A program made the translations under genes and the position numbers. The notes under the pieces are model-generated. The model worked only from the letters and a program-made list of their open reading frames with translations, was not told the origin of the DNA and did not search any database. From Baffinella frigidus (taxonomy: Eukaryota; Cryptophyceae; Cryptomonadales; Baffinellaceae), in the NCBI GenBank assembly GCA_026770585.1, contig MU646331.1, positions 161,310-183,223 on the forward strand: DNA of 21,914 nucleotides. The letters are read 5' to 3'. This document shows, piece by piece, positions 2,696 to 21,914 of the stretch. Each line of letters starts with the position of its first letter. The first letter of the stretch is position 1.

Positions 2696-2854
2696 GGGGT
2701 ACCTCGCCCATAAGAAACCAACGCCCCCTAGGACCCTACAGTACGCCTATGCCTAGGGCCCTGTCGTGATCCTAGGAGGGGGGCTGTTTCTTATGAGCGA
2801 GGTACCCCTGTATTGACAGAATTGCGGCAGCGTGGTCTTGCGACCGCAGGGAGC

Positions 2855-3912: not shown

Positions 3913-6900
3913 CTGAGTGGGGGTGGGGGGTTTACCACACGGTGAGCTTCGAGGGTTTCGGGACCCCTAGATTTAGCGGTAACGTGACCAAATTTTCATT
4001 AGAAGATCCTGAAAGTTAAGTGCCCACGGGGTAAGTTGACTTTTGATGAAAGGTCCGTAGTCCACTGTGTGGCAGGGGTCCAGTAACCCTGCACGGATAA
4101 TTCAGAGTGACCCCGGTAGGTTTGAGCAGGACGTAGGAGAAAGGTCGTGCACCCTCTACACGGTTACCTCGCTCATAAGGAGCCGCCCTCTCCCCCTAGA
4201 AGCAGTAGGGCTGTGGGTGTAGGAATACTGTAGGGTCCTACAGGGGTACCTCGCTCATAAGAAACCGCCCCCCCTACTAGGGCCATCATAGGGCCCTAGG
4301 CATGGTCCTACTGTAGGGTCCTAGGGGGAGGCGGTTTCTTGTGAGCGAGGTACCCCTGTACTGTAGGATCCTAGGGGAGGTGCACCTCCTTTCGAGAAAA
4401 GGTGGGGGGGGGCTCGCGGGGGTGTTTTTGGTGGGCGAGAAAAGTTCCTCTCGAAAGATAACTGATTCAGTTCCCTATTAGCGTTTTTTCTTAAATTAGG
4501 AGACCTAATTAAATTTACTACGCCCTAACTTATTTCTCCTATTCAACCTCCTATTGAAAAGGGAATTATTCAGTTATCTTCCGAGAAAAAAGTGCGGTTG
4601 GTGGGAGAGAAAAGAAACTGCCTCTCACACCCCAGGTCTCCATTTGTGAGAAAAGTGCGTTTCTTACGGATCAAACCCAACATGGCCACCATATAATCCC
4701 TTCTGTGAAGGCTTTGTAAGAATAGGACCTAAACACCAAAACAAACTCTGTGGGCGGTTCTGACGACTCGCAGGGACCACACGAGGCTATCTATGCGAAC
4801 AGATGCAGAAGTCAATTATTGGATTATTGCCCAGGAAACACGCCAAAAGTCAGCAAATGATCACATTTCAGCCCGCTGAGCGGGCGGAGACGTGATGATT
4901 TCCCGACATTTTTTAAAAACGTCCTTTTTATTCTGTTCGTGTGGATAGCCTCGTGTGGGAGGGGGTAGGGGTTCGATCTGCATATGCAGCTTGGGGGTGT
5001 TGTTGGTCAGTGGCTTTGAGGGCTCGCGTGTGTGTGGGGTTGTGGTTTATGGTTTATGATCCAGGGCTTAGGGTTTGGGGTTTAGGGTTCAGGGTCTAAG
5101 ATTTAGGGTCTAGGGTTTAGGGTTTAGGGTCTAGGGTTCAGGGTCTAGGGTCTAGGGTCTGGGGTCTAGGGTCTAGGGTCTAGGGTGAGGGTTTAGGGTT
5201 TTGGGTTTAGGGTTTTGGGAATCGGGTTTAGGATTGAGGTTTTAGGGTTTAGGGTTCAGGGTTTAGGGTTTAGGGTCTAGGGTTTAGGGTTTAGGGTCCA
5301 GGGTTTAGGGTTCAGGGTTTAGGGTCCAGGGTTTAGGGTTTAGGGTTCAGGGTTCAGGGTTCAGGGTTCAGGGTTTAGGGTTTAGGGTTGGGGAGAGACC
5401 GGCGTGTACTACTAGGCGGCTTTATGACAAATCGGTTCTGGGGACTCGCAGGGGGGGAGGGTAAGAGTTGAGGGTTTAGGGTCAAGGGTTCAGGGTTTTG
5501 GGTTCAGGAGTTCTGGTTTAAGATTTAGGGTTGAGAGTTGGGTTTGACCTGCATGTACTGTTTGTCGGCTCTGAAAAATCGGTTCTGGGGACTCGCAGGG
5601 GAGGGTTTAGAGTTTAAGGTATAGGGTTTAGGGTTTAGGGTTAACGATTTTTTTTTGGGGGGGGACCTGGGTGTACTGCTTGGCGGCTTCTAAAAACTCG
5701 GTTGTATGAAGAATCGCATGGGGGAAGGGTTGGAGTTTTGGGTTCAGGGTTCAGGATTTAGGGTTTAAGATTTTTGGTGGGGGAGGGCCCTGGGTGTACT
5801 GATTGGCGGCTTCTGAAAAATCGGTTCTGAGGACTCGCAGGGGGGGGGGTAGAGTTTATGGTGTAGTGTTTAGGGTTCAGGGTTTAGGGTTTAGGGTTTA
5901 GGGTTTGGGGTTTAGGGTTTAGGGCTTAGGGTTTGCGAGCAGGGGGGGGGGGATAAGAGTTTAGGGTTTAGGGTTTAGGGTTTAGGGTTTAGGGTTTAGG
6001 GTTTAGGGTTGGGGAGAGACCTGGGTGTACTGCTTGGCAGCCTCCTCCACGTCCTTGTCCCGCTTTTCCAAGACCTGATTTCGTGAGAAGATACCCCTTT
6101 ACAACACAGCGGACTACAAAAGAAGAAATCCCTAACCCCTAACCCTCAAAGGGATGTATTGCCAACCCACACGAGGCTATACATGCGAACAGAATAAAAT
6201 GGCATTTGAAAAAAATGTGGGAAATGATCACGTTTCCTCGTGCTTTTTCCGAGGAAACGTGATCAATTGCTGACTTTGGGCGTGTTTCCTGGGCAATAAT
6301 CCAATAATTGACTTATGAATCTGTTCGCATGGATAGTCTCGTGTAGACACGGTCGCGATGTATGAACACGAAAAAAAACGGGGCGCTTTCTGAGTAGGAG
6401 AGCACATCAACGTCCTTGTCCCGCTTTTCCAGGACCTGATTTCGTGAGAGGAGAGGGACCTTCACCACATAGCGGAACACAACGGGTTTCGTGGTGGCTC
6501 ACGTGTCCCTCTTTTCCAGGATCTGATTCGAGGGAGGAGAGAGACCTTTCCCACACATCCGATTCTGCTACACAGGGATTCTTGGTGGCCGAGCCACCAA
6601 TAATCTGTTAGGATATCCGTAGGAACAACCCCATGTCCCTACGGATTTCCTACCACGGGGGTCCTAATAATGTTCACGTGTGGGTTATTCACGCAATCCC
6701 TTCGTAGTCTGCTGTGTGGTCTAGGATGAGGATACGCCTACACGGCTCGAGGAAGACACATGCCTTGATGAATACCAACACGGCCGCCATGTGTGCATCC
6801 CCACAGGGGCAGTGGCTGAGCAGGGGCGCCGAGAGAAGTTACTCCGAAAACAAGTATTTTTCTTTTAACAGCTGGCAATGAAAACTACTACACAACGGGT

Positions 6901-8344: not shown

Positions 8345-9052
8345 GCTCCGTGCGAAAAAGCGCTGCTTTCCGTCAGGAACTAGACACCCGACTCTCCCCA
8401 GGAAGCGGGAAGCTACCGTCTGTCAATACGGAGCACTGCGCTTCTGAAAGCTCAAGAGGCGGGCACGAGTGGTGAAGGACGACGTTCTCGAGGCGCGGCC
8501 GCGCTCCGGAACGCGATTCCGGAAAAACGCACACAGGTCATGAGTCCCGAACGGGGAACTTCGATTTGTTCAGTTGTGTACTTAAGGCGAAGATAAACTT
8601 TTAAGTCAACCTTCCTGTCACAAATCCTCTGTGCTTCTTTCCAAGGTTCCTTTGCAACCCCAAAGGTGAGGCGCCCGAAAAGCTTCGCCCGCAGAGATCT
8701 GTTGCGATCGCCTCTCAGCGCGGCGGTGACACGAGCCTGCCGAGAGCGGGACGCTTGAGAGGTTCTTGCTCGGACAAGAAAGAAAGATCTATCAAGAGAC
8801 CACTTTCTTTCTTGTCTGGCACTGCGCACCTGCGCAACGGGCGTCCAGAGGCGCGAGCACAGGCATCGAGAGGGAGCATGCGAGATGAACACGCACGGGG
8901 GGGCGGGGATGTTGCGTGATGCGCCGCGCAGGGATCCTTGCGCGAGTAATCCTTGCCGCCTCGATCCTATGCGGCCCCTTTGTCCCAGCTTGAACAAACA
9001 CACCGCAGTGCCGCCTGCCGCTGACATCCCCCGCCGCCATCGCGCAAGCAGC
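8345..9052. promoter_or_regulatory. Divergent promoter region between the two genes
   Basis: 708 bp between opposite starts, free of telomere-like repeats. An interrupted palindrome lies at 8773-8816: GACAAGAAAGAAAG and its exact mirror, 16-base loop. The repeat TGCGCACCTGCGCA is at about 8824-8837. No TATA box is obvious. An open frame in phase with TrpB2 begins at an ATG at 8885, so the transcribed or translated part may reach further up. The 200-codon minus-strand open frame here looks like a shadow. Confidence 0.45.
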
Positions 9053-9121
9053 ATGGCGGCTGATCAGGTGAAGTACTTCCTGGATGAGAAGGACATGCCG
9101 ACGAGCTGGTACAACATCCAG
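9053..9121 (+). CDS. trpB2: TrpB2 exon 1 (residues 1-23)
   Basis: [20 protein letters not shown] then NIQ, the family N-terminus, with donor CAG|GTCTCT. The frame stays open upstream to an ATG at 8885 (56 more residues, Arg/Ser/Pro-rich), which could be an organelle-targeting extension. The 9053 ATG matches the usual family start. Confidence 0.88.
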
Positions 9122-10301
9122 GTCTCTCTCTGCCCACCACCAATCCCCCGAAGTGAAAAGAGATAGGGGTGGAGTTGAGTAACCCCCCCCCCAGGACCGA
9201 ATCCTGAGGGTTTAGGCTGACATATCACGTTCTGGTAAACTTCGGGTGGCTGGTGGCTCTCTCTCCACCAGCCCTCACGGAAGGACCAAACATCGATTTT
9301 CGACCTTTCCCCAAAAGTTGATTGTGCACCAAGATTGGGACTTCTTAAGTTGTAGCCAGCCGAATTCGCTTGGCTGTCAAGATGAATTTGAGGTCTGAAA
9401 ATCGACGATATCGTCTTTCCGTGACGGTTGGTGGCTTCCCACCCGACGGAGCTGTTTTCCTGCAACAACATTTCCAAGGAACCACCAGCAACCCGTAGCA
9501 GCTTATACCGGATCCTTGCAAGGATTCGGGCATTTAAAAAAAAAACTTTCCTATGACCCTACGGTAGGAAGCCTTAGGGACCTCGAATTGCTGACGGAAG
9601 ATACCGAAGAGATTTTTTCGGTTTAGCTGAAAATTACTACAGTACCCGGACCGGTTAAAAGCTGCAACGAGTTGCTGGTGAAAAGGTTCCACCAGCCCTG
9701 AGAGTGGGGGCAATCCTCCTTGTCGAGATCCCTGATATGTACCACATGTCGTCGAATTCCGGCAATTTCCAGTTCAAATCAGGGGGGTTGAAAAGGGCGA
9801 TTTGCGACCACTTTGGAGTGGAAACGAGCCCGGGCTCACCAAATTGGCGGCTCGAGCACAAATAGACTGAGACAGAGTTAGAAGATCTTTGCAACCCCAC
9901 AGCGCCGAGGGAAACTTGGTTGTGAATAATGCAGGCCGCGGTGTGAATTAAGGAGTTACGGTCGCTCCTTGATCGCAGACGGACCTCCCGACGCCGCTCC
10001 CACCCGTGATTAACCCGGGGCGGGGCGCATGGGCCCGACTGGCCTCTCTCTCCCTCTCCCTCTCCCGCTCCCTCTCTCTCTCCCTCTCTCCCTCCCTCTC
10101 TCCATCCGTCTCTCCCTCCCTCTCTCCCTCCCTCTCTCCCTCCCTCCATCCCTCTCTCTCTCTCCCTCTCTCTCTCGCGCGCGCGCGCTCTGTAAAACAA
10201 ACCCCACACCCTCAACCCGACAACCATTCTCTCCTTGCTCTCAGGCGGACCTCCCGACGCCGCTCCCACCCGTAATCCACCGCGGACGCACGGACCGAAC
10301 C

Positions 10302-10389
<88 letters not shown>

Positions 10390-12341
10390 ACCNNNNNNNN
10401 NNNNNNNNNNNNNNNNNNNNNNNNNNNNNNNNNNNNNNNNNNNNNNNNNNNNNNNNNNNNNNNNNNNNNNNNNNNNNNNNNNNNNNNNNNNNNNNNNNNN
10501 NNNNNNNNNNNNNNNNNNNNNNNNNNNNNNNNNNNNNNNNNNNNNNNNNNNNNNNNNNNNNNNNNNNNNNNNNNNNNNNNNNNNNNNNNNNNNNNNNNNN
10601 NNNNNNNNNNNNNNNNNNNNNNNNNNNNNNNNNNNNNNNNNNNNNNNNNNNNNNNNNNNNNNNNNNNNNNNNNNNNNNNNNNNNNNNNNNNNNNNNNNNN
10701 NNNNNNNNNNNNNNNNNCCTCAACTCTCAACCCTCAACCCTTAACCCTCAACCCTCAACCCTTAACCCTCAACCCTTAACCCTCAACCCTCAACCCTCAA
10801 CCCAGGCGGACCTGCCCACGCCGCTGCCGCCCGTGATCCACCCGGGGAGGATGGACCCGATCGGGCCGGACGATCTCGCGCCGCTCTTCGCGCCCGAGCT
10901 CATCAAGCAGGAGGTCTCGGGGGTTAGGGTTTCGGGGGTCAGGGTAGGGTGGTTTCAGGAGGTTTCGGGGGTTAGGGTAGGGTGGCGTTTGGCGTTTGGC
11001 GTTTGGCGTTTGGCGTTAGGGTTTGGGGTTTAGGGAGGATGGAAACAATTGGGCCGGATGACCTGGTGCCGCTCTTCGCCCCCGTGATCATCAAGCAGGA
11101 AGTTCACCCGAAACTGTGGGTAGTGAGGGTAGGAGCTATGCCATATGGCATAGCTCCTACCCTCACTACCCACAGAAACCCTAACCCCTAACCCCTAACC
11201 CGTGAACTGTAAACCGTAAACCTTGTGTGCCGAAGGTTCCGCAGGAGCGGTACATCGAGACCTCAACCCTAAACCCTAATCCCTAAACCCTAAACCCGAA
11301 ACTCTAAACCCTAAACCCTAAACCCTAAACCCTAAACCCTAAACCCTAAACCCTATACCTTCAGCCCTAAACCCCACACCCTAGACCCTGAACCCTAAAC
11401 CCCAAACCCTGGACCCTGAACCCTGAACCCTGAACCCTAGACCCAAACCCCTGAACCCTAACCCAGGTATCTCTGGAGCGGTACATCGAGATCCCGAAGG
11501 AGGTGCAGGACGTGTACCGCCAGTGGCGCCCAAGCCCCCTCTACCGCGCCCGCAACCTCGAGAAGGTGAGCCTAATCTGCGGAAGCGAACTGTTTAACGA
11601 AGTGCTTAATCTGCGGAAACGAAGTGTCCCGGGCGCTGCCTCGCGCGGGTTGGCTATCAGACTATTCTCAAGTTGACACGCTGGGAGTGCGGTACACATC
11701 CGTCAACTTTGCAGCGGGAAAGAGCCGGGTCTCACTAGATTGGTGAGCGCAAATAGACTTAGCCAGAGCTAGGCCCGAGCCCCCTCTACCGCGCGCGCAA
11801 CCTCGAGAAGGTGGGCATAATCTGCGGAAACGAACTTTTTGTTTAGTTTTATGGCAGCGAAAATTACTACGCAACTGCTCTACAGTGTAATAGTGTAATT
11901 GTCGTTGCCAGAAACTAGTGTTTTTGTTCGTTTCCGGAGATGGAAGTGCTGGCTCTCAAGTGACCATGCGGGTAGAACTTGAGTGTTGTTCGTTAGAGTT
12001 GAGACCGTGAGCCCTCTCTACCGCGCATGCAATCTCATGAGGTCTAGCTGCGCCTCACTAGGGTTGGCTGGCTATTCTCAAGTTGACATGCTGTGTGTGT
12101 GGTACAAAGCCGTCAACTTTGGAGTGGAAACGAGCGTGCCATCACCAAATTGTTGAGACCAAATAGACTGAGGTGTTGAGATCGTGAGCCCCCTCTACCG
12201 CGCCCGCAATCTCGATAAGGCCATTCTCGCTGGCCAGCCCGCAGAAGGTCAGGCGTCTGAACATTCTGGGGTTGGAAGGGTCTGTATGAGGGCGGTATTG
12301 GAAATCGATGCACCGGGGCGGCCGTGGTGGTACTCACAAGA

Positions 12342-12372
<31 letters not shown>

Positions 12373-12376
12373 TCTA

Positions 12377-12418
<42 letters not shown>

Positions 12419-15400
12419 AGGCTCTGGGTCTCCAACGGACCTGAAAGGGACAGAGCCTCCGTGGGGTTGCACAGATGGGTGTTGGTATTGATAAAAGTCT
12501 CTCTCTCTCTCTCTGACAGGCGCTGGGTCCCGTGTTGGTAGTAACAAAGGGCTCTCTCCGTGTGACACGAAGGCACTCTCCTACAAACGCTGGGTCTCTT
12601 CTTGTAGTTGATACCGTGAGCCCCATGCCGGCCATGTTGGTACTCACAAAAGTTGCTCCCTATCCCTCCCTCTCGCTCTCTCTCTCTCTCTCTCTCGCGC
12701 GCGCTCTCACTCTCACTCTCACTCTCCCTCTCTCCCTCTCTCTCTCTGACAGGCACTGGGCCTCGACGGGCCGAAGATCTACTACAAGTACGAGGGCGTC
12801 TCCCCGACGGGCAGCCACAAGCCGAACACCGCCGTGCCCCAGGTATCAGATAGAGCGGCTTTCAACCCTGTTGGCCGCGCGAAAAGAATAAAAATGCCAG
12901 ACGTTGACGATTACTGCCACGCCAGATTCTTGGAAGGTGTTGCCAAAAGTCAATTTCTCCTCAAGGTAGTGGTTTTCAAAAGTTGAAACTCGTATCCACA
13001 TACGGTTTTAAAAAATTAACACCCTCCTTCACTCTGGCGTCGTGGGACTAAGCCGCCAACGTTTGGCATCGTTTGGTTGTTTTCGTGGCCACACGGGCCG
13101 AAGATCTATTACAGGCACGAGGGGGTGTTCCCAACGGGCATCCACACGCCCAACACCGCCATGCCCCAGGTAGAGCGGTTGTGGGAAAACTTGGCCGATT
13201 TTCTGAGATTTTTTTCAGAGATTCACAGCTTTTGTACCAGGACGTGACATGAAACCGGTCCATCTAAACGATTCTGGTACAAATTCTGAAAACATTTGTC
13301 GTTGAAATCGGCCAAGTTTTGCCACAAGCGCTCTACCTCGAGACCTTACGAATGTGCCAAACCCTACACCCGAAACCCGAAACCCGAAACCCGAGATCTG
13401 AAATCTGAAACCCGAAACCCGAAACGGGTTCTCGCCGGTAAGGAGGGACGTTTGTATGTACCGACACGGCCGCCATGTACGCACCCCCACAGAGGCTACG
13501 GGTCTCTCTGCACCCCATGTTGGAATTAACAAAGATGTATCTCACTCCAGGCATACTGCAATAAGAGGTGGCTGGGTTGGTATCATTAACAAGGTCTCCC
13601 TGGCACCAAACGTTGGAATTAACAAAAGTCTCGTCTCACTCTCTCACGTCAGGCGGATTATCATAAGATGGCTGGGACTGAGAAGAAGCTCTGCGCAGAG
13701 ACGGGTTGTGATTACGAACCGAGGTTCCACGCAGGGCTGGAGGGGGGGGTATTCCAAAGTCATTTTTTTGAGGGGAAACGGTATTCAAAAGTCAATGTTG
13801 AGAAGAAAACGGCTCCAAGGGTGACCCGATGGCTCAAAGGGCGACCCTGGAATACCCCCCCGAAGGGCCCTGGGTGGTTCGGAAGCAGGTAGAGGAGCCC
13901 TGGGCGCACGCTCCTTTTCATCTCGGAAGATAACTGAATCAGTTCCTTTTCAATAGGAGGTTGAATAGGAGAAATTTGTTAGGGCATAGTGAATTTAATT
14001 AGGCCTCCTAATTAACTGAAAACGCTAATTAGGGAACTGATTCAGGTATCTTTCGAGATGAATTTGGTACCGCGAGACGAAAGCGTCCTGACATTCCTGC
14101 TGGTGTGCCCTGGCGTGACTGCAGGCGTACTACAACAAGATCGCCGGGACCGAGAAGCTCTGCACAGAGACGGGGGCGGGGCAGTGGGGATGCTCGCTCG
14201 CCTACGCTGGCAACGCCTTCGGCCTCGAGGTCGAGGTTTTCCAGGTGCGAAATAAACCTCCCAAACGTTGATTTGCCATAGGAATCCTTGGGTTCTCTCG
14301 AAAAGTTGCCGATTTGTGGTACACGTGATAGATAGATGCAAATTTCTGGTAGCCCTTCCGCGTAGACACTCTGCAGAGGAGACGGGCGCGGAGCAGTGTC
14401 ATGCAAAAAGCTATCGCCAACGAACCCCGTATTTGGACGCGACTCCGTACAAAAATTATAATGGAAAACAATTTAGGGTACTAAAAGTCCTGAAATGGCT
14501 TTTAAAATTATTTTAGAGCCTGTAAGTCCCTCGCCAGCGGACCACCTAGGGGGTCCGCTGGCGAAAGCTTTTCGCATTAAGTGGGGGTGCTCGCTCGGGT
14601 ACGCAGGAAACACGTTCGGTCTCGAATACAAGTCTTCCAGGTGCAAAATAAACCTCCCAAAAGTTAATTTACCCTAGGGAATCCTCGATTCCTTCCCAAA
14701 AGTGGCTGATGTGTTGTACAACTAATAGATGGACGCAATGTGTGGGGGTGCTCTCTCTGGTGTACGCGAGAAACGTGTTCGGCCTCGAAGTGGAAGTCTT
14801 CCAGGTGTGAACACCTTCCACGCGGGAGGGAGGGATGAATGGAACGATCCTCTAACTGGCATCGGATTTCCGATACCGCCCACAAGTTGATTTGCGTGAG
14901 GAATCTTTAAATTTTTCTCGAAAGGTGGCAGAATTGTGGTACACATAATAGATGGACGCAATATGTGGGGCGGATTCTGGCCCTAGTTAAATTTACTTAG
15001 GGCCCTAATTAACCTTCGGCCAATTCCTATGAACAAATAGGGGTCCAGTTTCATTTAAATTAAACATGTCCCCGGATAAAAGCTGGAACCCCGATCGGGA
15101 TAGAGGTTGAGGTTTTCCAGGTAACTTCCAAAAGTCATTTCGCTCTAGTAATCCGAGATTTATCGCCCAAAGTGGCCGATGTGTGGCACAGATAATAGGT
15201 GGACAGTAGTGGGGGTGCTCGCTCGCCTACGCGGGGAACGCATTCGGGCTTGAGGTCGAAGTCTTCTAGGTACCTCCCTAAAGTTAATTTCCCTAAGGAA
15301 TCCGAGATTTCCCCCCAAAAGTGGCCAATTGGTGGTACACATATAATAAATAGACGCAACATGTGAGGGTGTGCACTCACTTACGCGGGAAACGCCTTCG

Positions 15401-16927
15401 GGAGACTTCCACTTCGAAATGGAAGTCTTCCAGGTACCTCCTCAAAGTTAATTTCGACACATTACACCATACACACTGCACCATCGCCCCTGACCCCCAC
15501 TCCTAAATAGGTGGCGATCTCAAAGAAGATGAAACCGATGCGCACGGTGTACATGCAGACCTTTGGCGCCGCCTGCCACGCCTCGCCGTCCGATAGGTCT
15601 CCCGAAACCCCACGAACGAAACCCGAATCCCAAAACCCGAAACCCGAAACCCGAAACCCGAAACCCGAGACCCCAAGAACGAAACCCGAATCCCGAAACC
15701 CGAAACCCGAAACCCGAAACCCGAAACCCGAAACCCGAAACCCGGAACCCGGAACCCGAAACCCGAATTTCGAAATCCGAAACCCGAATCCCGAATCCCG
15801 AATCCCGAGCCCCGAAACCCGGAACCCGAAGCCACGACGCACAGTGTACAGGCAGACCGTCGGTGCCACGCCTCCCCTTCCGACAGGTCCCAACACTCAT
15901 ACCCTAAACCATACACCATACACCATTCACCATAAAACGTACACCATACACCATAAACAACACACCCTAAACCCTAAAAACGACCCCTAAACCCTATCGA
16001 CCAATAACCCCTCAGGACGGAGGTCGGGAAGAAGATCTCATAGGCAAACACTTATAATTTATAACTGGATTTCAATCGAAATTACTACACGTTTGCTTTG
16101 ATATTACTAGTAAAGATCGTTCTGTGTAGTAAGTTTCATTGAATCCAGTTGAATCCAAATTATAAGTATTTCCGTATGAGATCCTCGCGGAAGACCTTGA
16201 CTGCCCCGGGGGGACTATCCACCCTGAAAACTGAAAACTGAACCCTGAAACCAAACCCACAATTCCTGATCCCTCATCCCTAAAACTTAAGTCCAGAGCG
16301 CTGTGCAGAGAAGTTGGCCACCGGAAAATGGGAAAATGGGGAAATTGCAGCCGTTGATGTCCACTTTTGAGAAATTCATGGTACTAAATTTCTCAAAAGT
16401 CGACAAAATGGCTCCAATTTCTCGATTTTCTATTATTTCCCGTGGTCAACTTCTCTGCACATCGCTCTACCTGGAAACCATAAACCTACAATCTAAACCA
16501 GGACGGAGGTGGGGAAGAAAATCCTCGCGGGGGACCCGGACTGCCCTGGCTCGCTCGGGATCGCGATTTCCGAGGCCGTCGAAGCGACTGTCACGTCCGA
16601 CAAGAAGGCCAAGTAATCGCTTCCACGTCCATCTACACTCTTCCATGTCCATCTATACTCCACGAACGAGAACCTGTTGACTAGTTTGAGCGTTGTTTGG
16701 TACAAATTTTAGGCGGATTAGTAACCGCCCTGGTACAAAACCTGACCGGTTCAGTCAGCTGCCCCGGCTCGCTCGGGATCGCGATTTCCGAGGCCGTCAA
16801 AGCGACTGTCACGTCCGACAAGTACACGTCCATCTACTCCGTTACACGTCCATCTATACTCCACGCACCAGAGTCCGCTGTGCGACTGTTGACTGTTGAC
16901 GTACACCACCCCTGGCCCCTATCTCTC

Positions 16928-16971
<44 letters not shown>

Positions 16972-16990
16972 CACACACACGCGCACACAA

Positions 16991-17023
<33 letters not shown>

Positions 17024-17883
17024 CACACACACACACACACACGCTACCAACCCTAAACGCTGAACCCTTCTCCCTAAATCCTCAACCCCAATCACGCCTA
17101 ATCGCTGAAGACGCTGACCCTAACCCTAGTCCCGAAACAAGGTACGCGCTGGGCTCAGTGCTGAACCATGTGTTGATGCACCAGACCGTCATCGGACAAG
17201 AGGCCATCACACAGATGGAAATGGTACCTCCCTTCTTCCAACCTGACCTTTATTTGTACCGGGGGTCATCCACTTTTCGGCTACGATGGGTACAAACCCG
17301 CCGGAGAATCATGGGCCTCGAGGCCATCAAACGGATGGAAATAGTAAACCCCCAACCTGAACGAAACGGTAAACGCTAAACCCGAACGCAATAGTAAACC
17401 CTAAACCCTGAGGTTTAGGCCTCAACCCTAAACCATTTCCATGGGGGCGTGAAAGACCATTTCTGTAACCCCGAAACCCTCACTCCCACGCGAGCAGGCT
17501 GGAGCCACTTAGCAGCGACCCAAGATATTTTCCCCCGCATTCTCGGGGAAAATGCGGTTGGAATCCAATGCAAATGGATAAGATTCTAGTACGAATCGTT
17601 TAGATGGACTGCATCCGTAAAGACCTCGGTGGGTGCTAAGTGGATTACCCGCCTGATACATGCCACGAAATGTAACCCCACAACCTAAACCCTGGACCCT
17701 CAACCTTAAACCCTACACCCCGAACCCACAACCCAAACCCCAAACCCTAACCCCTAACCCTCCTCCCATGTGAGCAGGCTGGAGATTACCCAGACGTTCT
17801 CGTGGGCTGCACGGGTGGAGGGTCCAACTTCGGCGGCCTGTACTCCCCCCCACTGTGTGGTAGGCGGGACGGGGCAGGCGGGA

Positions 17884-17914
<31 letters not shown>

Positions 17915-20900
17915 TGTGGGGGTTCACCATTTCCATCCCCGTCCCGCCTACCACACAGTGGGCTTCGAAGACAATGTCCATCCATTTGCCTGGTACAAAT
18001 CGTATCCATTGCTAAAGAATAACCGTATTCATTGCTAAGAATAAATCGTAGCCATTGCTTAGGGGGGGAAATCGACGAGAATCCTGGCCGACATCCGCTT
18101 TGAAGCCCCCATGTGAGGCACGGTGGCGGGTCCAATTTCGGCGGCCTGTGATCCCCCCAGCCTCTCAGCCTGCGGGGCTTCAGTTGTTTCCCGTGGGGGG
18201 GGGGTGCTTCCCCTCACAGCTGCAGGGCCCAATCCCTAAACTCTGAACCCTCATCCCTGAGCCCTGAACCCTCATCCCTCATCGCTCAACCCCACATCCT
18301 ACACCCTCAACCCTAAACCCTAAGCCCTAAACTTTGAACGCAGGTGCTTTCCCTTCATCGGACAGAAGTTCCGCAAAGAGGTACTTCTTCCAATCTCAGA
18401 TGAAAACGTTTTTGATTTAGAACCTTTGGGCAATGAAAATTAGTAATTCAAAATTAGTAATTTTAATTTTGAATTACTACATATCATGATCTTTATTGGT
18501 AATATTAAAGCATTCATGTAGTAATTTTCATTGGTCCCTAAGGTTTCAAATTAAAACCGTTTTTTTATGAAGTCCCTCCCATCCACGCAGCGGGCTACGA
18601 AGGGGAACCTGGTTGGATATCAACCAGGTTTCGGTCAGGATATCCGCGAGAAAACTCCTATGTCCCTACGGATGGACTACTATAGGGTCCTATGGATTAT
18701 CACTTGGGGGTTATTCACGAAATTCTTTCGTAGTCCGCTGTGTGGTCCGCCATTTTCCCCCGTATTAAATTATCCGGTCTCCCTCCCCCTCCCATCCAGC
18801 CATCTTCCTCTGTTTTCATGAAACGTTTCCACCATCCTTTCAGACGCCGAAACCGTAAATAGTTCTACCCCCCTTTCAGGTGCCAAAACCGTTAATATGT
18901 CTACCCCTCTTTCAGGCGCCGAAACCGTAAACATGTATACCCCCCTTTCAGGCGCCGAAACCGTTCCGGGTGGTGGCGGTGGAGCCTGCCGCATGCCCGA
19001 CACTCACCAAGGTCGCTACACGTTACCCTAAACCCTACACCCTAAAACATCCAGCCTAAACCGTAAACCCTCAACCCTAAACCCTAAACCCTAAACCCTA
19101 AACCCTAAACCCTAAACCCTAAACCCTAAACCCTAAACCCTAAACCCTACCTAAACCATCAACCCCAAATCCGAAACCATGAACTATGTACCCTAAACCC
19201 TGAACCCTGAACCCTGAACCCTGAACCCTGAACCCTGAACCCTGAACCCTGAACCCTGAACCCCGACCCATCAACCCCAGACCCGAAACAAACCCTAACC
19301 CCTAAACCGTAAACCGTACACCACCACTAAACCGTAAGCCGCAAACCAGGAAAACGCCTACGACTTTGACCATGAACCATCAACCCCAAGCCCTGAACCC
19401 TAAACACTGAACCCGAAACAAACCCCAAACCCTAACCCTGTCCCCTCCCATAGGGCAAATATGCCTACGACTTTGGGGACACCGGCAAGATGACGCCTCT
19501 CATGAAGACCCACACGGTATGAAGACCCCCCCTTGTTGTAACAGGGATGCAACTATGGTTCTACGAACCTGGCCAAGAGTTGACTGAAAACCCCGCCCTG
19601 GGTCGCAGCTCGAATGATTGACTAAAAGCATCGCGTTGTGTGTGCAGCTCTCAGCGTTGACTGAAAACCTCGCGCTCGTTTGCAGCGTGAGGCGCTGACT
19701 GAAACCCTCTCCACCCTTGTTCGCAGCTGAAAGGGTTGACTAAAACAAACCACGCTTTGTTTGCAGTTCGAAGTATTAACTGAAAACTCACGTTTTGTTG
19801 GCAGCTGGGGCACCTGTTCATGCCGGCGCCGGACCACGCGGGCGGCCTCCGCTACCACGCCATGTACCTACGCCCTCTCATCCTCTCTCTTACTATGCCA
19901 TGTACCTACGCCCTAAGCCCTAAACCCGAAACCCCACGCCCTAAACCCGAAACCCTAAACCTTGAACCCTAAACCCTTGACCTTCAACTCCAAACTCTAA
20001 ACCCTAAAACCTAAACCCTGAACCCTAAACTGTAAACCTTAAACCCTAAAGAACTGTAAACCCTAAACCCTCAGAACCGAGGCCTCCGCTACCACGCCAA
20101 GTACCTACGCCCTCAACCATCAACCTGAACCCCTATGCCCGAAACCCGAAACCCCAAACCACAAACCCCAAACCCTAAACCGTCAACCCTAACGTACCAT
20201 CAACCGCCCTCTTGTGTGAAGCTGTACACCCACCGTCTCGGTATACCATAAATGCCCGACACGTCTGGTGCACCACAAACCGCTACCACGCCATGTACCT
20301 ACGTCCTAAACATTAAAGCCTAAAGATGCCCCTATAAACTACACCCTGAACTCTAAACCCTAAACCCTAATCCCTAATCCCTAATCCCTAAACCCTATGC
20401 CCTAAACCCTAAACTCTAACCCCTAAACCCTAAACCCTAAACCCTAAAACCTAAACCCTAAACCCTAAACCTTAGACCCTAAAATCCCAACCCCTATGCC
20501 CTAAACCCTAAACCGTAAACCCTAAACCCTAGACCCTAAACCCTACACCCGAAACCCTAAACCAGGTCACCGATCATCTCGCACCTCAAGGAGATCGGCG
20601 AACTGGAGGCACCATAAACCCTAAAACATAAACCCTAAACCCTAAACCATAAACCATAAACCATAAACCATAAACCCTAAACCCTAAACCCCAAACCCCA
20701 AACCCAAACCCAGAGCTCGAGGCTCCCCCCAGACCCCATACCCTGAACCCTACACCCTAAACCCTGAAACCGAAACCCTAAACCCCAAATCCCGAACCCT
20801 AACCTCCCAAACCACCCAAACCCCAAACCACGAGCTCGAGGCAACCCCCGCCCTCAATTCGCTACTAGTCAATAAACAGCGCCCCCCTCCTCCATCAACT

Positions 20901-21914
20901 GTGCGTCCATTTTCATAAACAACTCTGGTGGCATACGGAGCAGACTCCCTTCATAAACATTCATAGGATAACGGACTGAAAATGGGGTAGTTAGGCCTAC
21001 GGTATTGACTACGGTAGGCCGTAGGGGCCTAGGGGGCTCCTACAAAAAAACGGGGCCTAGAGGCCCTACGACCTACCGTAGGTAATACCGTAGGCCTAAC
21101 TACCCCATTTTCAGTCCGTTACCCTATTAACATGCTTTCCGATCGTCAACGGCGCCCTGCTGCCTCTGCAGGCGGTGGCATACACGTAGCCGGAGTTCAT
21201 CTCGAAAGATAACTGAATCAGTTCCCTAATTCGCGTTTTCATTTAATTAGGATGTCTAATTGAATTTACTGTGCACTAATGAATTTCTCCTATTCAACCT
21301 CCTTTTGAAAAGAAACTGATCCAGTTATCTTCCGAGATGAGAGTGCTTGGAGGCGAGCGAAGTCGCCCGCCTCGCATTAATCGGCAAAGCCTAATCTGCA
21401 CTGGCACTGCCGCCTGATACATGCCACGAAAAAAATCGTTTTCGTGGAAACACGTGTTTTCGTAACATGCCACGAAAACGCGTGTTTTCGTAACGTGCCA
21501 CGAAAACACGTGTTTTCGTCAACGGAGCCGTGTTGCCCCGGCATGCGGTGGCATGCAAGCAGACATAGTGCTTCGAAACGGACCCTAAACCCTAAACCCT
21601 CAACCCTCACCCACCAACCACCAATCCTAAACTATCAACCATCAATCATCAACCATCAACCATCAACCCTAGACCATCAACCATCAACCCTGAACCATCA
21701 ACCCTTATCCTGAACCAGATGGCGGCATACAAGCAGACAGACTGCTTCGAGTTCAAAATTTGAGTTACTTTCGAACCTTGCAATTGAGCGATCCAAAAGT
21801 CTACGCGCCGAAATGACCCGCCTCGGATCACTCGGCACTTTCTGATTTCTCACTGCGTGTGATGCAGGCGGTGGCATACAAGCAGACCGAGTGCTTCGAG
21901 GCTGGGGTTCTCTT
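9053..21914 (+). CDS. trpB2: Type-2 tryptophan synthase beta chain (TrpB2), 15 exons, 3' end off window
   Basis: A PLP enzyme that joins indole and L-serine (some family members use O-phosphoserine) to make L-tryptophan; TrpB2 usually works without TrpA. Exons: 9053-9121, 10806-10913, 11467-11565, 12753-12842, 14125-14244, 15511-15596, 16502-16612, 17142-17223, 17778-17839, 18344-18380, 18952-19011, 19454-19516, 19805-19863, 20566-20608, 21868-21914+. All phases agree and give 378 residues. Family landmarks in order: [20 protein letters not shown] near the start, [13 protein letters not shown] (80-92), GSHKPN with the PLP lysine K115, TETGAGQ with catalytic E137, SPGS-like [11 protein letters not shown] (about 207-217), YALGSVLNH, phosphate loop GGGSN (268-272), [32 protein letters not shown] and [14 protein letters not shown]. 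About 60-75 residues should remain beyond the edge. Thirteen introns are GT-AG and the last is GC-AG. Introns carry exon-edge copies. Confidence 0.93.
9245..9690. mobile_element. Two adjacent hairpin elements in intron 1
   Basis: The first (about 9245-9465) pairs CCACCAGCCCTCACGGAAGG and ATCGATTTTCGACC with inverted counterparts at 9390-9445. The second (about 9478-9690) pairs CACCAGCAACCCGTAGCAGC with the inverted GCTGCAACGAGTTGCTGGTG at 9660-9680. The second also holds GAAAATTACTACAGTACC. Confidence 0.5.
9979..10026 (+). pseudogene. Exon 2 head copy 1 (intron 1)
   Basis: Follows GATCGCAG and matches the first 45 bases of exon 2 with eight differences, six of them synonymous. It shares the changes CTC CCG ... 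CTC CCA with copy 2, so the two copies have a common history. It breaks off in a CT-rich tract. Confidence 0.85.
10044..10190. repeat. CT-rich low-complexity tract
   Basis: Mixed CTCTCTCC/CTCCCT repeats ending in a short GCGCGCGCGC run. It lies directly upstream of the acceptor of exon 2 head copy 2, where it would act as a pyrimidine tract. Long open frames across it are compositional. Confidence 0.9.
10245..10299 (+). pseudogene. Exon 2 head copy 2 (intron 1)
   Basis: Follows TTGCTCTCAG and reads GCGGACCTCCCGACGCCGCT, as in exon 2, out to CACGGACCGAACC. The ATG codon of exon 2 (GGATGG) is lost here. It runs into the CCCTCAA array. Confidence 0.85.
10297..10803. repeat. CCCTCAA array spanning the assembly gap
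   Basis: Regular 7-base CCCTCAA units with some CCCTTAA, a telomere-like variant. The array runs into the exon 2 acceptor (CAACCCAG). The gap sits inside the array, so its true length is unknown. Confidence 0.9.
10393..10717. other. Assembly gap (325 N)
   Basis: Run of N with CCCTCAA repeats on both sides. Long open frames that span it are meaningless. Confidence 0.99.
10806..10913 (+). CDS. trpB2: TrpB2 exon 2 (residues 24-59)
   Basis: [20 protein letters not shown], then [16 protein letters not shown], standard for the family. The donor is GAG|GTCTCG. The intron's first bases could themselves encode Val-Ser, as exon 3 does, so the intron start looks like a duplicate of the exon 3 start. 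Confidence 0.92.
10918..11036. repeat. G-rich telomere-like and GGCGTTT repeats in intron 2
   Basis: GGGTTAGGG-like and GGCGTTT units. This is the one clear block in TrpB2 where the sense strand is G-rich. The polarity flips to C-rich beyond the palindrome at 11114-11175, as if this half of the intron were inverted. Confidence 0.8.
11033..11101 (+). pseudogene. Exon 2 tail copy plus donor (intron 2)
   Basis: Sixty-nine bases match the 3' end of exon 2 in frame without a stop, ending ATCAAGCAGGAA|GTTCAC. About half the changed codons are synonymous and most of the rest are conservative. Confidence 0.9.
11114..11175. repeat. Perfect 62-bp palindrome in intron 2
   Basis: Two 31-base arms, no mismatch and no spacer. 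It starts CTGTGGGTAGTGAGGGTAGG, is centred on GCCATATGGC and ends CCCACAG. Telomere-like repeats change polarity across it. Confidence 0.95.
11245..11260 (+). pseudogene. Exon 3 head copy (intron 2)
   Basis: After CCGCAG the sequence GAGCGGTACATCGAGA matches exon 3 codons ERYIE, then gives way to CCCTAAA repeats. The first two codons of exon 3 are missing. Confidence 0.75.
11265..11465. repeat. CCCTAAA/CCCTGAA array running into the exon 3 acceptor
   Basis: Degenerate 7-base units continue to CCCTAACCCAG|GTATCT. The repeat itself supplies CTAAC, a branch-site-like motif, and the pyrimidines before the acceptor. Confidence 0.9.
11467..11565 (+). CDS. trpB2: TrpB2 exon 3 (residues 60-92)
   Basis: [20 protein letters not shown], then [13 protein letters not shown], the conserved substrate-pocket entry of TrpB2. 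The donor is AAG|GTGAGC. The sequence CTAATCTGCGGAARCGAA begins just after the donor and recurs after copy 1. Confidence 0.93.
11773..11810 (+). pseudogene. Exon 3 tail copy 1
   Basis: CCCCTCTACCGCGCGCGCAA followed by CCTCGAGAAG|GTGGGC, nearly identical to the exon 3 end, with the same post-donor TAATCTGCGG. Confidence 0.9.
11825..11945. mobile_element. Hairpin MITE in intron 3
   Basis: The ends CTGCGGAAACGAAC and GTTCGTTTCCGGAG are mirror images, with an inner GCGAAAATTACTAC arm. It begins a few bases after the donor of exon 3 tail copy 1. The real intron 3 begins with a similar CTGCGGAAGCGAAC. Confidence 0.65.
12009..12219 (+). pseudogene. Exon 3 tail copies 2 and 3
   Basis: At 12009-12040 GAGCCCTCTCTACCGCGCAT continues to CTCATGAG|GTCTAG. 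At 12186-12219 GAGCCCCCTCTACCGCGCCC continues to CTCGATAAG. They bracket a family H repeat. Confidence 0.85.
12328..12752 (+). repeat. Repeated 3'-intron module with CT tracts and exon 4 head copies
   Basis: The acceptor segment TCTCTCTGACAG|GC is present three times, with heads GCTCTGGGTCTCCAACGG (12421) and GCGCTGGGTCC (12520) and the true GCACTGGGCCTCGACGG (12753). A weaker copy is near 12588. Each module starts with a GTTGGTANTNACAAAAG motif. Confidence 0.85.
12753..12842 (+). CDS. trpB2: TrpB2 exon 4 (residues 93-122), PLP lysine
   Basis: [20 protein letters not shown] then [11 protein letters not shown]115 in SHKPN is the expected Schiff-base lysine. The donor is CAG|GTATCA. Confidence 0.95.
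13091..13169 (+). pseudogene. Exon 4 tail copy with lysine changed to threonine
   Basis: Seventy-nine bases match exon 4, remain open in frame and end CCCCAG|GTAGAG. The SHKPN of the real exon reads IHTPN here: AAG to ACG removes the PLP lysine. The head of the exon is missing and no acceptor is visible, so it is not a full alternative exon. Confidence 0.9.
13170..13336. mobile_element. Hairpin element starting at a pseudo-donor
   Basis: Arms GTAGAGCGGTTGTGGGAAAA and mirror TTTTGCCACAAGCGCTCTAC extend about 33 bases. The element's first GT is the donor position of the exon 4 tail copy. A related element with AGAGCGCTGTGCAGAGAAGT ends lies at 16292-16470. Confidence 0.7.
13370..13425. repeat. 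CCCGAAA variant array
   Basis: Telomere-like 7-base CCCGAAA units with CTGAAAT variants, C-rich on the sense strand. Confidence 0.85.
13551..13705 (+). pseudogene. Exon 5 head copies (two)
   Basis: After CACTCCAG at 13551, GCATACTGCAATAAGAGG matches the exon 5 head. After CACGTCAG at 13653, GCGGATTATCATAAGATGGC continues through GAGAAGAAGCTCTGCGCAGA to 13705. Both are preceded by the TTGGNATTAACAAAAGTCTC module also found in intron 3. Confidence 0.85.
13735..13866. mobile_element. MITE family G, copy 3
   Basis: Ends GGGGGGGTATTCCA and TGGAATACCCCCCC. It shares TATTCAAAAGTCAATG and GGCTCCAAGGG-type inner sequence with the copies in the minus-strand gene. Confidence 0.65.
13918..14061. mobile_element. 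MITE family C, copy 2
   Basis: TCATCTCGGAAGATAACTGA to the mirror CGAGATGA, 144 bp, in the opposite orientation to the other two copies. The flanks CTTT and ATTT suggest an eroded 4 bp target duplication. Confidence 0.85.
14125..14244 (+). CDS. trpB2: TrpB2 exon 5 (residues 123-162), TETGAGQWG motif
   Basis: [20 protein letters not shown], then [21 protein letters not shown]137 in TETGAGQ corresponds to the catalytic glutamate of TrpB. The donor is CAG|GTGCGA. Confidence 0.95.
14531..14564. repeat. Near-perfect 34-bp palindrome
   Basis: TCGCCAGCGGACC and its mirror GGTCCGCTGGCGA around CCTAGG. It lies just upstream of exon 5 tail copy a. Confidence 0.85.
14581..14640 (+). pseudogene. Exon 5 tail copy a
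   Basis: GGGGTGCTCGCTCGGGTACG to AAGTCTTCCAG|GTGCAA, followed by the same AAATAAACCTCCCAAA as after the real donor. Confidence 0.9.
14742..15433 (+). pseudogene. Exon 5 tail copies b to e
   Basis: Copies end at 14804 (CAG|GTGTGA, with a one-base insertion), 15120 (CAG|GTAACT, short), 15269 (TAG|GTACCT) and 15433 (CAG|GTACCT, with an internal inverted patch ACTTCCACTTCGAAATGGAA). Confidence 0.88.
15511..15596 (+). CDS. trpB2: TrpB2 exon 6 (residues 163-190)
   Basis: [20 protein letters not shown], then ACHASPSD and two bases of the Arg codon. It matches the family segment ending SPSDRT. Acceptor AAATAG; donor GATAG|GTCTCC. Confidence 0.9.
15599..15832. repeat. CCCGAAA array
   Basis: About 30 units of a 7-base telomere-like variant with CCCGAAT, CCCGGAA and AACGAAA interruptions. 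The sense strand is C-rich. Confidence 0.92.
15838..15887 (+). pseudogene. Exon 6 tail copy plus donor
   Basis: CGCACAGTGTACAGGCAGAC continues to CTTCCGACAG|GTCCCA. It has a small deletion relative to exon 6 that breaks the frame. Confidence 0.88.
16016..16220 (+). pseudogene. Exon 7 head copy interrupted by a MITE
   Basis: After CTCAG, GACGGAGGTCGGGAAGAAGA matches exon 7 to 16037. The match resumes at 16184 with CTCGCGGAAGACCTTGACTG. The intervening 142 bp element is absent from the true exon. Confidence 0.92.
16038..16179. mobile_element. Hairpin MITE with GATC target duplication
   Basis: TCATAGGCAAACACTTATAA to the mirrored TTATAAGTATTTCCGTATGA, 142 bp, with GATC on both sides (16034-16037 and 16180-16183). 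The inner arm GAAATTACTACAC links it to the GAAAATTACTAC group. The intact exon 7 provides the empty site. Confidence 0.9.
16292..16470. mobile_element. Hairpin element related to 13170-13336
   Basis: CAGAGCGCTGTGCAGAGAAG and the mirrored CTTCTCTGCACATCGCTCTA form the ends. An inner pair, TTTGAGAAATTCATG and TTTCTCAAAAG, also folds. Confidence 0.65.
16502..16612 (+). CDS. trpB2: TrpB2 exon 7 (residues 191-227)
   Basis: Completes Arg191, then [36 protein letters not shown] and two bases of Lys228. The acceptor is AACCAG. The donor GGCCAA|GTAATC is set by phase with exon 8. Confidence 0.92.
16759..16821 (+). pseudogene. Exon 7 tail copy plus donor, about 97% identical
   Basis: CTGCCCCGGCTCGCTCGGGA to GTCACGTCCGACAA|GTACAC differs from exon 7 by only two substitutions, but it lacks the last nine exon bases and uses a donor three codons earlier. 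An AG (TTCAGTCAG) lies just before it. This is the youngest copy seen. Confidence 0.92.
16919..17042. repeat. CT then CA microsatellite
   Basis: (CT)n with TTT interruptions followed by (CA)n with GC and AA interruptions. Confidence 0.95.
17142..17223 (+). CDS. trpB2: TrpB2 exon 8 (residues 228-255)
   Basis: [20 protein letters not shown], then AITQMEM, the family segment preceding the phosphate loop. Acceptor AACAAG; donor ATG|GTACCT. Confidence 0.93.
17303..17343 (+). pseudogene. Exon 8 tail copy plus donor
   Basis: ATCATGGGCCTCGAGGCCAT continues to CGGATGGAAATA|GTAAAC, open in frame. Confidence 0.88.
17505..17643. mobile_element. Hairpin element inside an exon 9 head copy
   Basis: CCACTTAGCA and mirror TGCTAAGTGG bound 139 bp. 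The left flank GCTGGAG and right flank ATTACCC together equal the first 14 bases of exon 9 exactly. A long target duplication is not evident. Confidence 0.85.
17778..17839 (+). CDS. trpB2: TrpB2 exon 9 (residues 256-275), phosphate loop
   Basis: [20 protein letters not shown] plus two bases of Leu276. GGGSN (268-272) is the PLP phosphate-binding loop. Acceptor GAGCAG; donor CCT|GTACTC, a weak consensus supported by exact phase with exon 10. Confidence 0.93.
17851..17960. mobile_element. Perfect 24-bp inverted repeats around a GT microsatellite
   Basis: CACTGTGTGGTAGGCGGGAC plus GGGG at 17851-17874 is matched exactly by its mirror at 17937-17960. The centre is (GT)n. It begins 11 bases after the exon 9 donor, and its right end contains ACACAG, an acceptor-like sequence. 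Confidence 0.85.
18118..18147 (+). pseudogene. Exon 9 tail copy plus donor
   Basis: GGTGGCGGGTCCAATTTCGG then CGGCCT|GTGATCCCCCC, preserving the GGGSNFGG codons and the unusual CCT|GT border. Confidence 0.9.
18344..18380 (+). CDS. trpB2: TrpB2 exon 10 (residues 276-288)
   Basis: Completes Leu276, then [12 protein letters not shown], matching the family FPF segment after GGL. Acceptor ACGCAG; donor GAG|GTACTT. Confidence 0.9.
18398..18570. mobile_element. Hairpin MITE, GAAAATTACTAC group
   Basis: Long arms: GATTTAGAACCTTTGGG...CAATGAAAATTAGTAAT against the mirrored right side ending CCGTTTTTTTATGA. A second nested palindrome, TTCAAAATTAGTAATTTTAA, lies inside. Confidence 0.7.
18583..18745. 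mobile_element. Hairpin element with CCACGCAGCGGGCTACGAA ends
   Basis: The left end CCACGCAGCGGGCTACGAA mirrors the right TTCGTAGTCCGCTGTGTGG. A perfect inner hairpin, AACCTGGTTGATATC-like with GATATCAACCAGGTT, lies at about 18607-18632. Related sequence is at 6600-6745. Confidence 0.7.
18841..18951 (+). repeat. 36-bp x4 tandem acceptor plus exon 11 head array
   Basis: CTTTCAG followed by NYGCCRAAACCGT starts at 18844, 18880, 18916 and the real exon 11 at 18952, an exact 36-base period. The upstream copies reach TAA right after the Pro codon (copy 2 shifts slightly), so use of a decoy acceptor would truncate the protein. Confidence 0.95.
18952..19011 (+). CDS. trpB2: TrpB2 exon 11 (residues 289-308)
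   Basis: [20 protein letters not shown], matching the family [14 protein letters not shown] segment. Donor AAG|GTCGCT. Confidence 0.94.
19012..19453. repeat. Intron 11: almost wholly CCCTAAA and CCCTGAA repeats
   Basis: Degenerate and perfect telomere-like blocks (perfect CTAAACC run at about 19075-19150, CCCTGAA run at 19199-19262). One exon 12 fragment at about 19351-19369 (AACGCCTACGACTTTGACC). The array ends CCCTAACCCTGTCCCCTCCCATAG. Confidence 0.9.
19454..19516 (+). CDS. trpB2: TrpB2 exon 12 (residues 309-329)
   Basis: [20 protein letters not shown] then T, matching the family [10 protein letters not shown] motif. Donor ACG|GTATGA. Confidence 0.95.
19571..19804 (+). repeat. About 39-bp x6 tandem acceptor array before exon 13
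   Basis: GCAG occurs at 19608, 19647, 19685, 19726, 19766 and 19804 (last base), spacing 38-41. Each is preceded by TTGTNTG and most are followed by an AGNGTTGACTGAAAAC-like body. The last is the exon 13 acceptor. A half unit begins at 19571. This fills most of intron 12 (19517-19804). Confidence 0.95.
19805..19863 (+). CDS. trpB2: TrpB2 exon 13 (residues 330-348)
   Basis: [19 protein letters not shown] plus two bases of Met349, the family [10 protein letters not shown] motif. The donor GCCAT|GTACCT is repeated three more times downstream. Confidence 0.94.
19864..20565 (+). other. Intron 13: exon 13 tail copies between telomere-like repeats
   Basis: Copies of CTACCACGCCAT|GTACCTACG end at about 19901, 20100 (GCCAA|GTACCT) and 20294. 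Each is followed by CCCTAAA-type repeats. The last array runs into AACCCTAAACCAG|GTCACC. Confidence 0.9.
20079..20294 (+). pseudogene. Exon 13 tail copies (two longest)
   Basis: At 20079-20100 GAGGCCTCCGCTACCACGCC then AA|GTACCT, and at about 20280-20294 CCGCTACCACGCCAT|GTACCT. A shorter third copy, TACTATGCCAT|GTACCT, is at 19891-19901. Confidence 0.88.
20566..20608 (+). CDS. trpB2: TrpB2 exon 14 (residues 349-363), GC donor
   Basis: Completes Met349, then [14 protein letters not shown]. The only phase-correct donor is GAG|GCACCA, so intron 14 is GC-AG. Both tail copies downstream keep GAG|GC. Confidence 0.88.
20964..21126. mobile_element. Long hairpin with nearly identical ~65-bp arms
   Basis: The left arm ATAGGATAACGGACTGAAAA to GGCCTAG is mirrored almost exactly on the right, ending CCGTTACCCTAT. 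The spacer holds CTCCTACAAAAAAACGG. The near-identity of the arms suggests recent origin. Confidence 0.85.
21172..21360 (+). pseudogene. Exon 15 head copy split by a MITE
   Basis: CTGCAG|GCGGTGGCATACACGTAGCC then GGAGT, the MITE, then GAGTGCTTGGAGGC. Removing the element and one GAGT restores a stretch of the same length as exon 15. It has an in-frame TAG. Confidence 0.92.
21197..21340. mobile_element. MITE family C, copy 3, with GAGT target duplication
   Basis: TCATCTCGAAAGATAACTGA to CGAGATGA, 144 bp, with GAGT at 21193-21196 and 21341-21344. The intact exon 15 acts as the empty site. Confidence 0.92.
21419..21520. repeat. Tandem palindromic repeat with CACGTG core
   Basis: Three to four units of ATGCCACGAAAACRCGTGTT plus TTCGTAAC, about 30 bp each. 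Each unit holds the palindrome GAAAACACGTGTTTTC (CGCG in one). A single ATGCCACGAAATGTAAC copy with the same left flank CGCCTGATAC is at 17650-17678. Confidence 0.9.
21545..21760 (+). pseudogene. Exon 15 head copies (two more)
   Basis: At 21545 GCGGTGGCATGCAAGCAGAC then ATAGTGCTTCGA. At 21720 GGCGGCATACAAGCAGACAG then ACTGCTTCGAG. The acceptor AG is lost in both (GCAT and AGAT). They bracket a CCATCAA/CCCTAAA array at 21583-21716. Confidence 0.88.
21868..21914 (+). CDS. trpB2: TrpB2 exon 15 (residues 364-378, continues off window)
   Basis: [15 protein letters not shown] plus two bases, the family motif before the C-terminal domain end. The exon is cut by the window edge. Confidence 0.93.

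Follow-up and report, generated by a model that had tools for sequence, protein, structure and literature searches.

Exon sequence is repeated in an adjacent intron where exons are tandemly duplicated or mutually exclusive. A local tandem duplication may also run across an intron-exon boundary and carry the splice signals along, as outlined for potato RdRp in PMC4974935, and intron gain by duplication of an AGGT-containing exon segment was proposed by Rogers in 1989, as described in the same paper. Moreover, introners, i.e. transposable elements that make introns, are presented in PMC9860276 and, for dinoflagellates, in PMC11453091, and according to the summary of PMC11782384 an intron's two borders share direct repeats of 4-30 bp. 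Here we analyse a gene of Baffinella frigidus in which most introns contain decayed copies of the edges of the neighbouring exons.

The window, i.e. the whole stretch of 21,914 nt analysed here, has its first base at position 161310 of a contig of 1.23 Mb, from an assembly of 382 Mb in 1364 contigs. From 9053 to the window end it contains, on the plus strand, 15 coding exons of a gene for a TrpB-like pyridoxal-phosphate enzyme (match to NF009057, 586 bits), referred to as the TrpB2-like gene. Its 14 introns are 288-1684 bp long, all 14 acceptors are AG, and the donors are GT in 13 cases and GC in intron 14. In the first reading intron 7 had a GA donor, which was ruled out by the public protein P0001 (472 aa) in favour of a GT donor located nine bases downstream; with the end of exon 7 corrected in this way, intron 7 comprises 529 bp. 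The features of the gene are as follows, with exons abbreviated as e1 to e15:

9053..9121, plus: exon 1 with start codon, exact match to P0001
9122..10805, plus: intron 1, with a gap of 325 N
9980-10023 and 10245-10296, plus: two decayed e2 head copies in intron 1
10806..10913, plus: exon 2 (P0001)
11033..11100, plus: e2 tail copy (40-107 of 108, 84%; exon-versus-window search)
11244..11260, plus: e3 head copy (9-25, 100%; exon-versus-window search)
11467..11565, plus: exon 3 (P0001)
11773-11810, 12010-12036 and 12187-12219 (span 11773..12219), plus: three e3 tail copies with family X elements between them
12753..12842, plus: exon 4 (P0001)
13093..13169, plus: e4 tail copy (14-90 of 90, 86%), directly next to an inverted-repeat element at 13168-13338
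13653..13705, plus: e5 head copy (1-50, 77%)
14125..14244, plus: exon 5 (P0001)
14364/14580, 14742, 15082, 15208 and 15363 (span 14364..15435), plus: e5 tail copies in intron 5
15511..15596, plus: exon 6 (P0001)
15838..15867, plus: e6 copy (31-60 of 86)
16016..16209, plus: e7 head copy in two parts (matches 1-22 and 20-48) with an inverted-repeat element between them
16502..16612, plus: exon 7, end corrected with P0001
16759..16822, plus: e7 tail copy (40-103, 97%), similarity extending into the intron
17142..17223, plus: exon 8 (P0001)
17309..17342, plus: e8 tail copy
17778..17839, plus: exon 9 (P0001)
18122..18147, plus: e9 tail copy
18344..18380, plus: exon 10 (P0001)
18836..18964, plus: 36-bp tandem array of 3.6 copies, spanning the acceptor and the head of exon 11 (TRF)
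18952..19011, plus: exon 11 (P0001)
19351..19368, plus: weak e12 head copy (E=0.076)
19454..19516, plus: exon 12 (P0001)
19805..19863, plus: exon 13 (P0001)
20081-20099 and 20280-20294 (span 20081..20294), plus: two e13 tail copies with donor
20566..20608, plus: exon 14, GC donor (P0001)
21172-21201, 21545-21576 and 21721-21751 (span 21172..21751), plus: three e15 head copies in intron 14, the first interrupted by an inverted-repeat element at 21197-21340
21868..21914, plus: exon 15, continuing past the window end (P0001)

The 378-aa translation of the joined exons is an exact substring of P0001, for which the listing gives a single 1,856-nt contig. As the exons matching P0001 are spread over ~18 kb of the genome, this contig must derive from spliced RNA, and as P0001 corresponds exactly to the joined intact exons, at least one product uses these rather than the copies. 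The residues at the start of P0001 are encoded at 8631-8663, which implies an additional 5' exon and an intron ahead of the start codon (8631-9052). In a protein tree of 40 chosen matches, midpoint-rooted for drawing, P0001 groups with P0002-P0004 and P0019-P0020 (fork support 99/95), P0004 being labelled taxid 2898, Cryptomonas paramaecium. A dinoflagellate host had been considered, its hallmarks being GC donors, AG|G acceptors and TTTAGGG-type repeats, but with this grouping a cryptomonad-like host is more likely. On the minus strand, positions 7860-8345 resemble, by eye, exons of a divergent neighbouring gene.

Each exon was compared with the whole window by blastn-short, and non-self matches at E≤0.05 were called copies. 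All 26 matches obtained lie on the plus strand in an intron adjacent to their exon, 17 of them in the downstream and nine in the upstream intron; as two copies are split, they represent ~24 copies. The upstream-intron matches derive without exception from the first half of the exon (heads, 9/9) and the downstream-intron matches from the second half (tails, 16/17), the exception, e5 29-62, looking by eye like one piece of a tail copy that an insertion has divided. Non-adjacent introns of the gene contained no match to any exon at this threshold. In 200 intron sets resampled at order 2 the mean number of matches was 0.36 (max 2), 0.04 of them adjacent, and the contrast with 26/26 shows that the rule of adjacency and polarity is real in this gene. 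Thus, exon-edge copying into adjacent introns is confirmed for the TrpB2-like gene. At E 0.05-0.5 another 14 matches, which we excluded from the copy count, comprise three that are adjacent and on the plus strand and 11 that lie elsewhere or on the minus strand; the same resampled sets yield a mean of 4.12 matches (max 10) at E≤0.5.

An earlier note on this DNA had assigned tails of the upstream exon to the 5' part of an intron and heads of the downstream exon to its 3' part, as is the case for 25 of the 26 matches, the other one being the split tail piece. Its claim that copies never come from non-adjacent exons agrees with the exon-by-exon search, and its view that local duplication of splice junctions lengthened the introns is supported as well. 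The note had counted copies in at least 12 of the 14 introns, a figure that fits if introns 10 and 11 are included: matches at E≤0.05 occur in 11 introns (1-9, 13 and 14), the evidence for intron 10 is not the exon search but the 36-bp array across the e11 acceptor, detected independently by TRF, and intron 11 has one adjacent, weaker head match (E=0.076). Intron 12 contains acceptor-like repeats, seen by eye only. In a scan of exon edges, the own intron scores best for 15 of 28 edges and not for the other 13, i.e. copying is frequent, but not universal.

The polarity of the copies also bears on the idea that these introns were born by tandem duplication of an AGGT exon segment, each intron being a duplicated piece of exon (Rogers model). 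Direct repeats of exon sequence beside the introns and AG|GT at several junctions are in line with this model. However, as we derive it, an intron should then begin (5') with the head of the downstream exon and finish (3') with the tail of the upstream exon, whereas the reverse is found in 26/26 matches, so that we reject this origin as highly improbable.

The duplicated units span both exon and intron sequence, including contiguous e5 and e3 units. On the exon side copies usually end abruptly, inside the exon, and on the intron side they often remain similar past the splice site. In intron 5 several copies of the e5 tail, with donor and 92-105 nt of intron, are arranged head to tail with a period of about 155-162 where uninterrupted; three of these units extend 105, 92 and 97 nt beyond the donor, the next copy beginning within 5 nt, and in one copy the flank is apparently lost and regained after an insertion. 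Similarly, a 204-nt unit at 12010 in intron 3 aligns with 270 nt of its source.

Flank similarity was tested in 60-nt windows on 52 hand-listed rows from the TrpB2-like gene and a second gene (see below), nine of which stop short of the junction. Among the 43 junction-reaching copies, the intron-side flank is similar at p≤0.05 in 19 (14 at p≤0.01) and the exon-side flank in six (one at p≤0.01); intron-side similarity at this level is absent from the other 24 copies, some of which have 92-97% exon identity. With gapped 150-nt windows and 60 shuffles each, 22 of 37 source-copy pairs from a hand-made list reach p≤0.033, although telomere-like repeats may inflate a few pairs. Position by position (46 hand-listed rows, three of them out of register), mean identity decreases from 0.82 at +2 to 0.58 at +3, i.e. 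after the GT, and at the acceptor it amounts to 0.92 at -3 versus 0.38 at -4, i.e. it drops ahead of the CAG. In the same rows the GT is retained in 27/33 tail copies, three of the six misses being register errors of the list, and the AG in 12/13 head copies. One-sided constraint on the source together with indels explains part of the drop beyond GT and CAG. Alternatively, copying and retention might be tied to the junction itself, with units that end at GT or CAG. The copies would then serve, or have long served, as alternative coding ends or as splice sites in competition with the real ones, and introns would consist of reserve exon borders; we consider this unlikely.

The copies differ from their exons by 0-29%, and this divergence is codon-periodic. 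In a hand list of 50 rows from both genes, mismatches at codon positions 1, 2 and 3 amount to 27/332, 23/337 and 93/331 in the TrpB2-like gene (positions 1 and 2 pooled, 50/669) and to 25/418, 20/422 and 78/427 in the second gene (pooled, 45/840). The third position has ~3.6 times more mismatches, in copies with and without similar flanks, and C-G changes number 58 at third positions versus eight at first and second positions. As synonymous change in the exon plus neutral change in the copy should result in an about twofold rather than a 3.6-fold excess, the copies may once have been coding or may have been copied from a diverged allele. Divergence at positions 1 and 2 (95/1509, ~6%) is near half of that in the intron flanks (149/1076, 13.8%, a value filtered towards similar columns). 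As regards strong coding constraint on the copies, the third-position excess is real, yet the flank divergence does not require a constraint on positions 1 and 2.

The retained splice dinucleotides, the codon-periodic divergence and the bias of C-G changes would suit copies that are functional, i.e. alternative exon ends or decoy/recursive splice sites under selection. However, P0001 uses none of them, the partner splice site is missing from most, five of the 50 rows have a net frameshift and four ungapped copies contain stops, and the divergence at positions 1 and 2 is what an unconstrained copy would give; functional copies are therefore an unlikely explanation.

High-copy inverted-repeat elements sit within and between the exon-edge copies, and M1, X and Y each have many matches in the genome. 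M1 is a foldback element of 146 bp, found at 13917-14062 and 21197-21340, the latter within an e15 copy and, by eye, bordered by GAG at both ends; apart from the window's own copy, the full-length matches listed for the genome have 94-96% identity (40 scored out of 1271 candidates). A joint query with X and Y gave 2450 genome candidates, of which 40 were scored. Family X has flanking direct repeats in six of ten testable cases (11 found) compared to 252/1755 random sites, the sample including some X copies from the arrays studied. An intergenic X (~2213-2440, core 2275-2374) is flanked by direct repeats of 63 nt, i.e. a repeat-element-repeat arrangement outside any exon, and an X in the stretch L003 by repeats of 70 nt. 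Among the 40 scored candidates, many Y matches begin 7 nt into the intron past exon xA of the second gene and extend almost to where the following copy begins. Where it borders this copy, the Y next to xA lacks its right end, and in our reading of the sequences the xA copy meets the truncated Y at a shared CGAT.

These elements initially made a strong case for foldback or MITE insertions with very long (~50 bp) target-site duplications, which would constitute the exon-edge copies: X and Y lie between copies, many of the scored Y matches start near the xA donor and end near the next copy, and two X elements are framed by long direct repeats. Against this, a long repeat flanks just one of eight further Y insertions (score 27; maximum of 15.5 in 56 cross controls), the Y beside xA is truncated at the copy boundary, and inverted-repeat elements in general show no enrichment of tight flanking direct repeats (1/39 versus 36/493 controls). 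After the tests of Y insertions and of elements in general, target-site duplication appears improbable. We have moderate confidence that X/Y/M1-type elements were frequent breakpoints of duplication, and microhomology may have contributed to these breakpoints.

Other repeats occur in the window as well. Positions 1-95 form a perfect CTAAACC telomere-type array, i.e. an interstitial telomere repeat or a join, and mostly degenerate telomere-like 7-bp minisatellites (10298-10392, 10718-10803, 11261-11461, 15617-15830, 19025-19315 and 20339-20802) fill parts of several introns, some close to the acceptor. A cluster of palindromic elements of ~120-145 bp, pairwise 67-91% alike, is located at 2437-4370.

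Exon-edge copying is not confined to the TrpB2-like gene, to which the earlier note had restricted it. A further TrpB2 exon downstream (L002, 3439-3516) is followed, before the last exon, by two decayed tail copies (E 0.002 and 0.009), as predicted by the adjacency rule. The second gene, which is ARM-repeat-like (L014 and L023 on contig C10, minus strand), was picked among six readable stretches for its plain coding segments and repeats and is thus not an unbiased sample. Nine exons were modelled using P0121 (58% identity over 75% of the query), xA-xG being backed by this protein and xH and xI by coding bias only, with all borders placed by eye at AG and GT. This gene has 32 matches at E≤0.05 (control, 100 sets: mean 0.87, max 4), 27 of which are adjacent, i.e. 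19 tails downstream, seven heads upstream and one extra match of the xD copy downstream, and exon-edge copies adjoin each of the nine modelled exons. None of the five non-adjacent matches (E 0.039-0.05) lies in an intron; four form two reciprocal exon-exon pairs and one falls within its own exon, on the other strand. Among the adjacent matches of both genes we found no complete exon copy with both splice sites: the xD copy alone reaches both exon ends (e15 being cut by the window end) and, reduced from 84 to 59 nt, a net loss of 25 nt, it is out of frame.

Three TCP1-like fragments (C6, C94 and C39), parts of three of the four contigs with TCP1 matches, were chosen by family and not by repeats, and two of them have exon-edge copies. 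In C6 there are one tail copy, one non-adjacent match (E 0.007) and, beyond the stop codon, a weak match; C94 shows two copies of heads as well as a match inside its own exon on the minus strand, and in the C39 fragment no exon-edge copies were found. Moreover, local direct repeats (within 1.5 kb) account for 27% of unmasked bases in the TrpB2-like gene and for 35% in the part of the window that precedes it. Eight of 25 further stretches sampled contained readable sequence; in six with >1.5 kb unmasked, which include the downstream part of TrpB2 and the second gene, the share is 12-50% (L009, where only 215 bases are unmasked and repeat pairs are absent, was omitted). Local duplication is therefore general, with exon edges caught in it.

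The spread over several genes on different contigs also speaks against an assembly artefact, i.e. small-scale false duplication, for which the 325-N gap and the draft state of the assembly (1364 contigs) could be cited; as the copies are up to 29% diverged and carry different insertions, such an artefact is very improbable. Processed pseudogene fragments were ruled out, as no match lies in a non-adjacent intron and the genome matches of P0001 are all at the TrpB2 locus among the 17 listed (19 candidates scored).

Taken together, the introns probably lengthened through small tandem duplications that recurred at splice junctions, followed by decay and foldback insertion. The duplicated units, ~36 to 270 bp where measurable, would each lie across a splice junction. 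Duplication of an exon tail with the donor and the start of the intron would leave the real exon first, followed by a surplus tail in the intron's 5' part, and duplication of the intron end with the acceptor and the exon head would leave an extra head in its 3' part. If splicing keeps to the outer sites, intact exons are still joined, so that junction-straddling duplications would be nearly neutral, whereas duplications within an exon would alter the protein and be lost by purifying selection. As the copies rarely have both splice sites, they may, under exon definition, not be seen as exons. They would then decay, indels, telomere-like repeats and inverted-repeat (foldback) elements would accumulate in them, and arrays would expand further. 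Junction duplication together with outer-site splicing would thus generate adjacency and polarity without any further rule, in a process that is not specific to the TrpB2-like gene. The abrupt loss of similarity past GT and CAG and the codon-periodic divergence fit this duplication model poorly and are left unexplained by it.

Growth by junction-straddling duplication suggests a route for intron lengthening in which duplications across splice sites are shielded from selection. Many junctions with extra splice sites in exonic context could, furthermore, serve as a test bed for exon definition versus splice-site strength, and such sites would confuse gene prediction.

The locus differs from tandem or mutually exclusive exons in that its copies are partial and decayed. 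Introners, as presented in PMC9860276 and PMC11453091, are similar with respect to the high-copy inverted-repeat elements near splice sites that fill introns, but in TrpB2 the shared sequence is the exon edge itself. The repeats outlined in PMC11782384 are likewise located at or near splice sites, whereas the TrpB2 introns contain repeats, tens of bases long, of a single exon edge. The Rogers model, in the description given in PMC4974935, likewise involves tandemly duplicated coding sequence next to an intron, but the polarity of the copies is the opposite. Among the titles and abstract openings listed from the open-licence literature we found no description of pervasive exon-edge copies in introns. 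Boundary-crossing tandem duplication is known singly, and no report on the scale of the TrpB2-like gene was found. The interpretation of the earlier note is supported as regards duplication, adjacency, polarity and intron growth, but neither its limitation to one gene nor its view that nothing comparable is known is supported, since potato RdRp, as outlined in PMC4974935, shares the boundary-crossing duplication with TrpB2. In the potato case this duplication gave rise to one new intron, whereas in TrpB2, where P0001 joins the 15 window exons exactly and no new spliced intron by duplication was found, many duplications at most junctions have lengthened existing introns.
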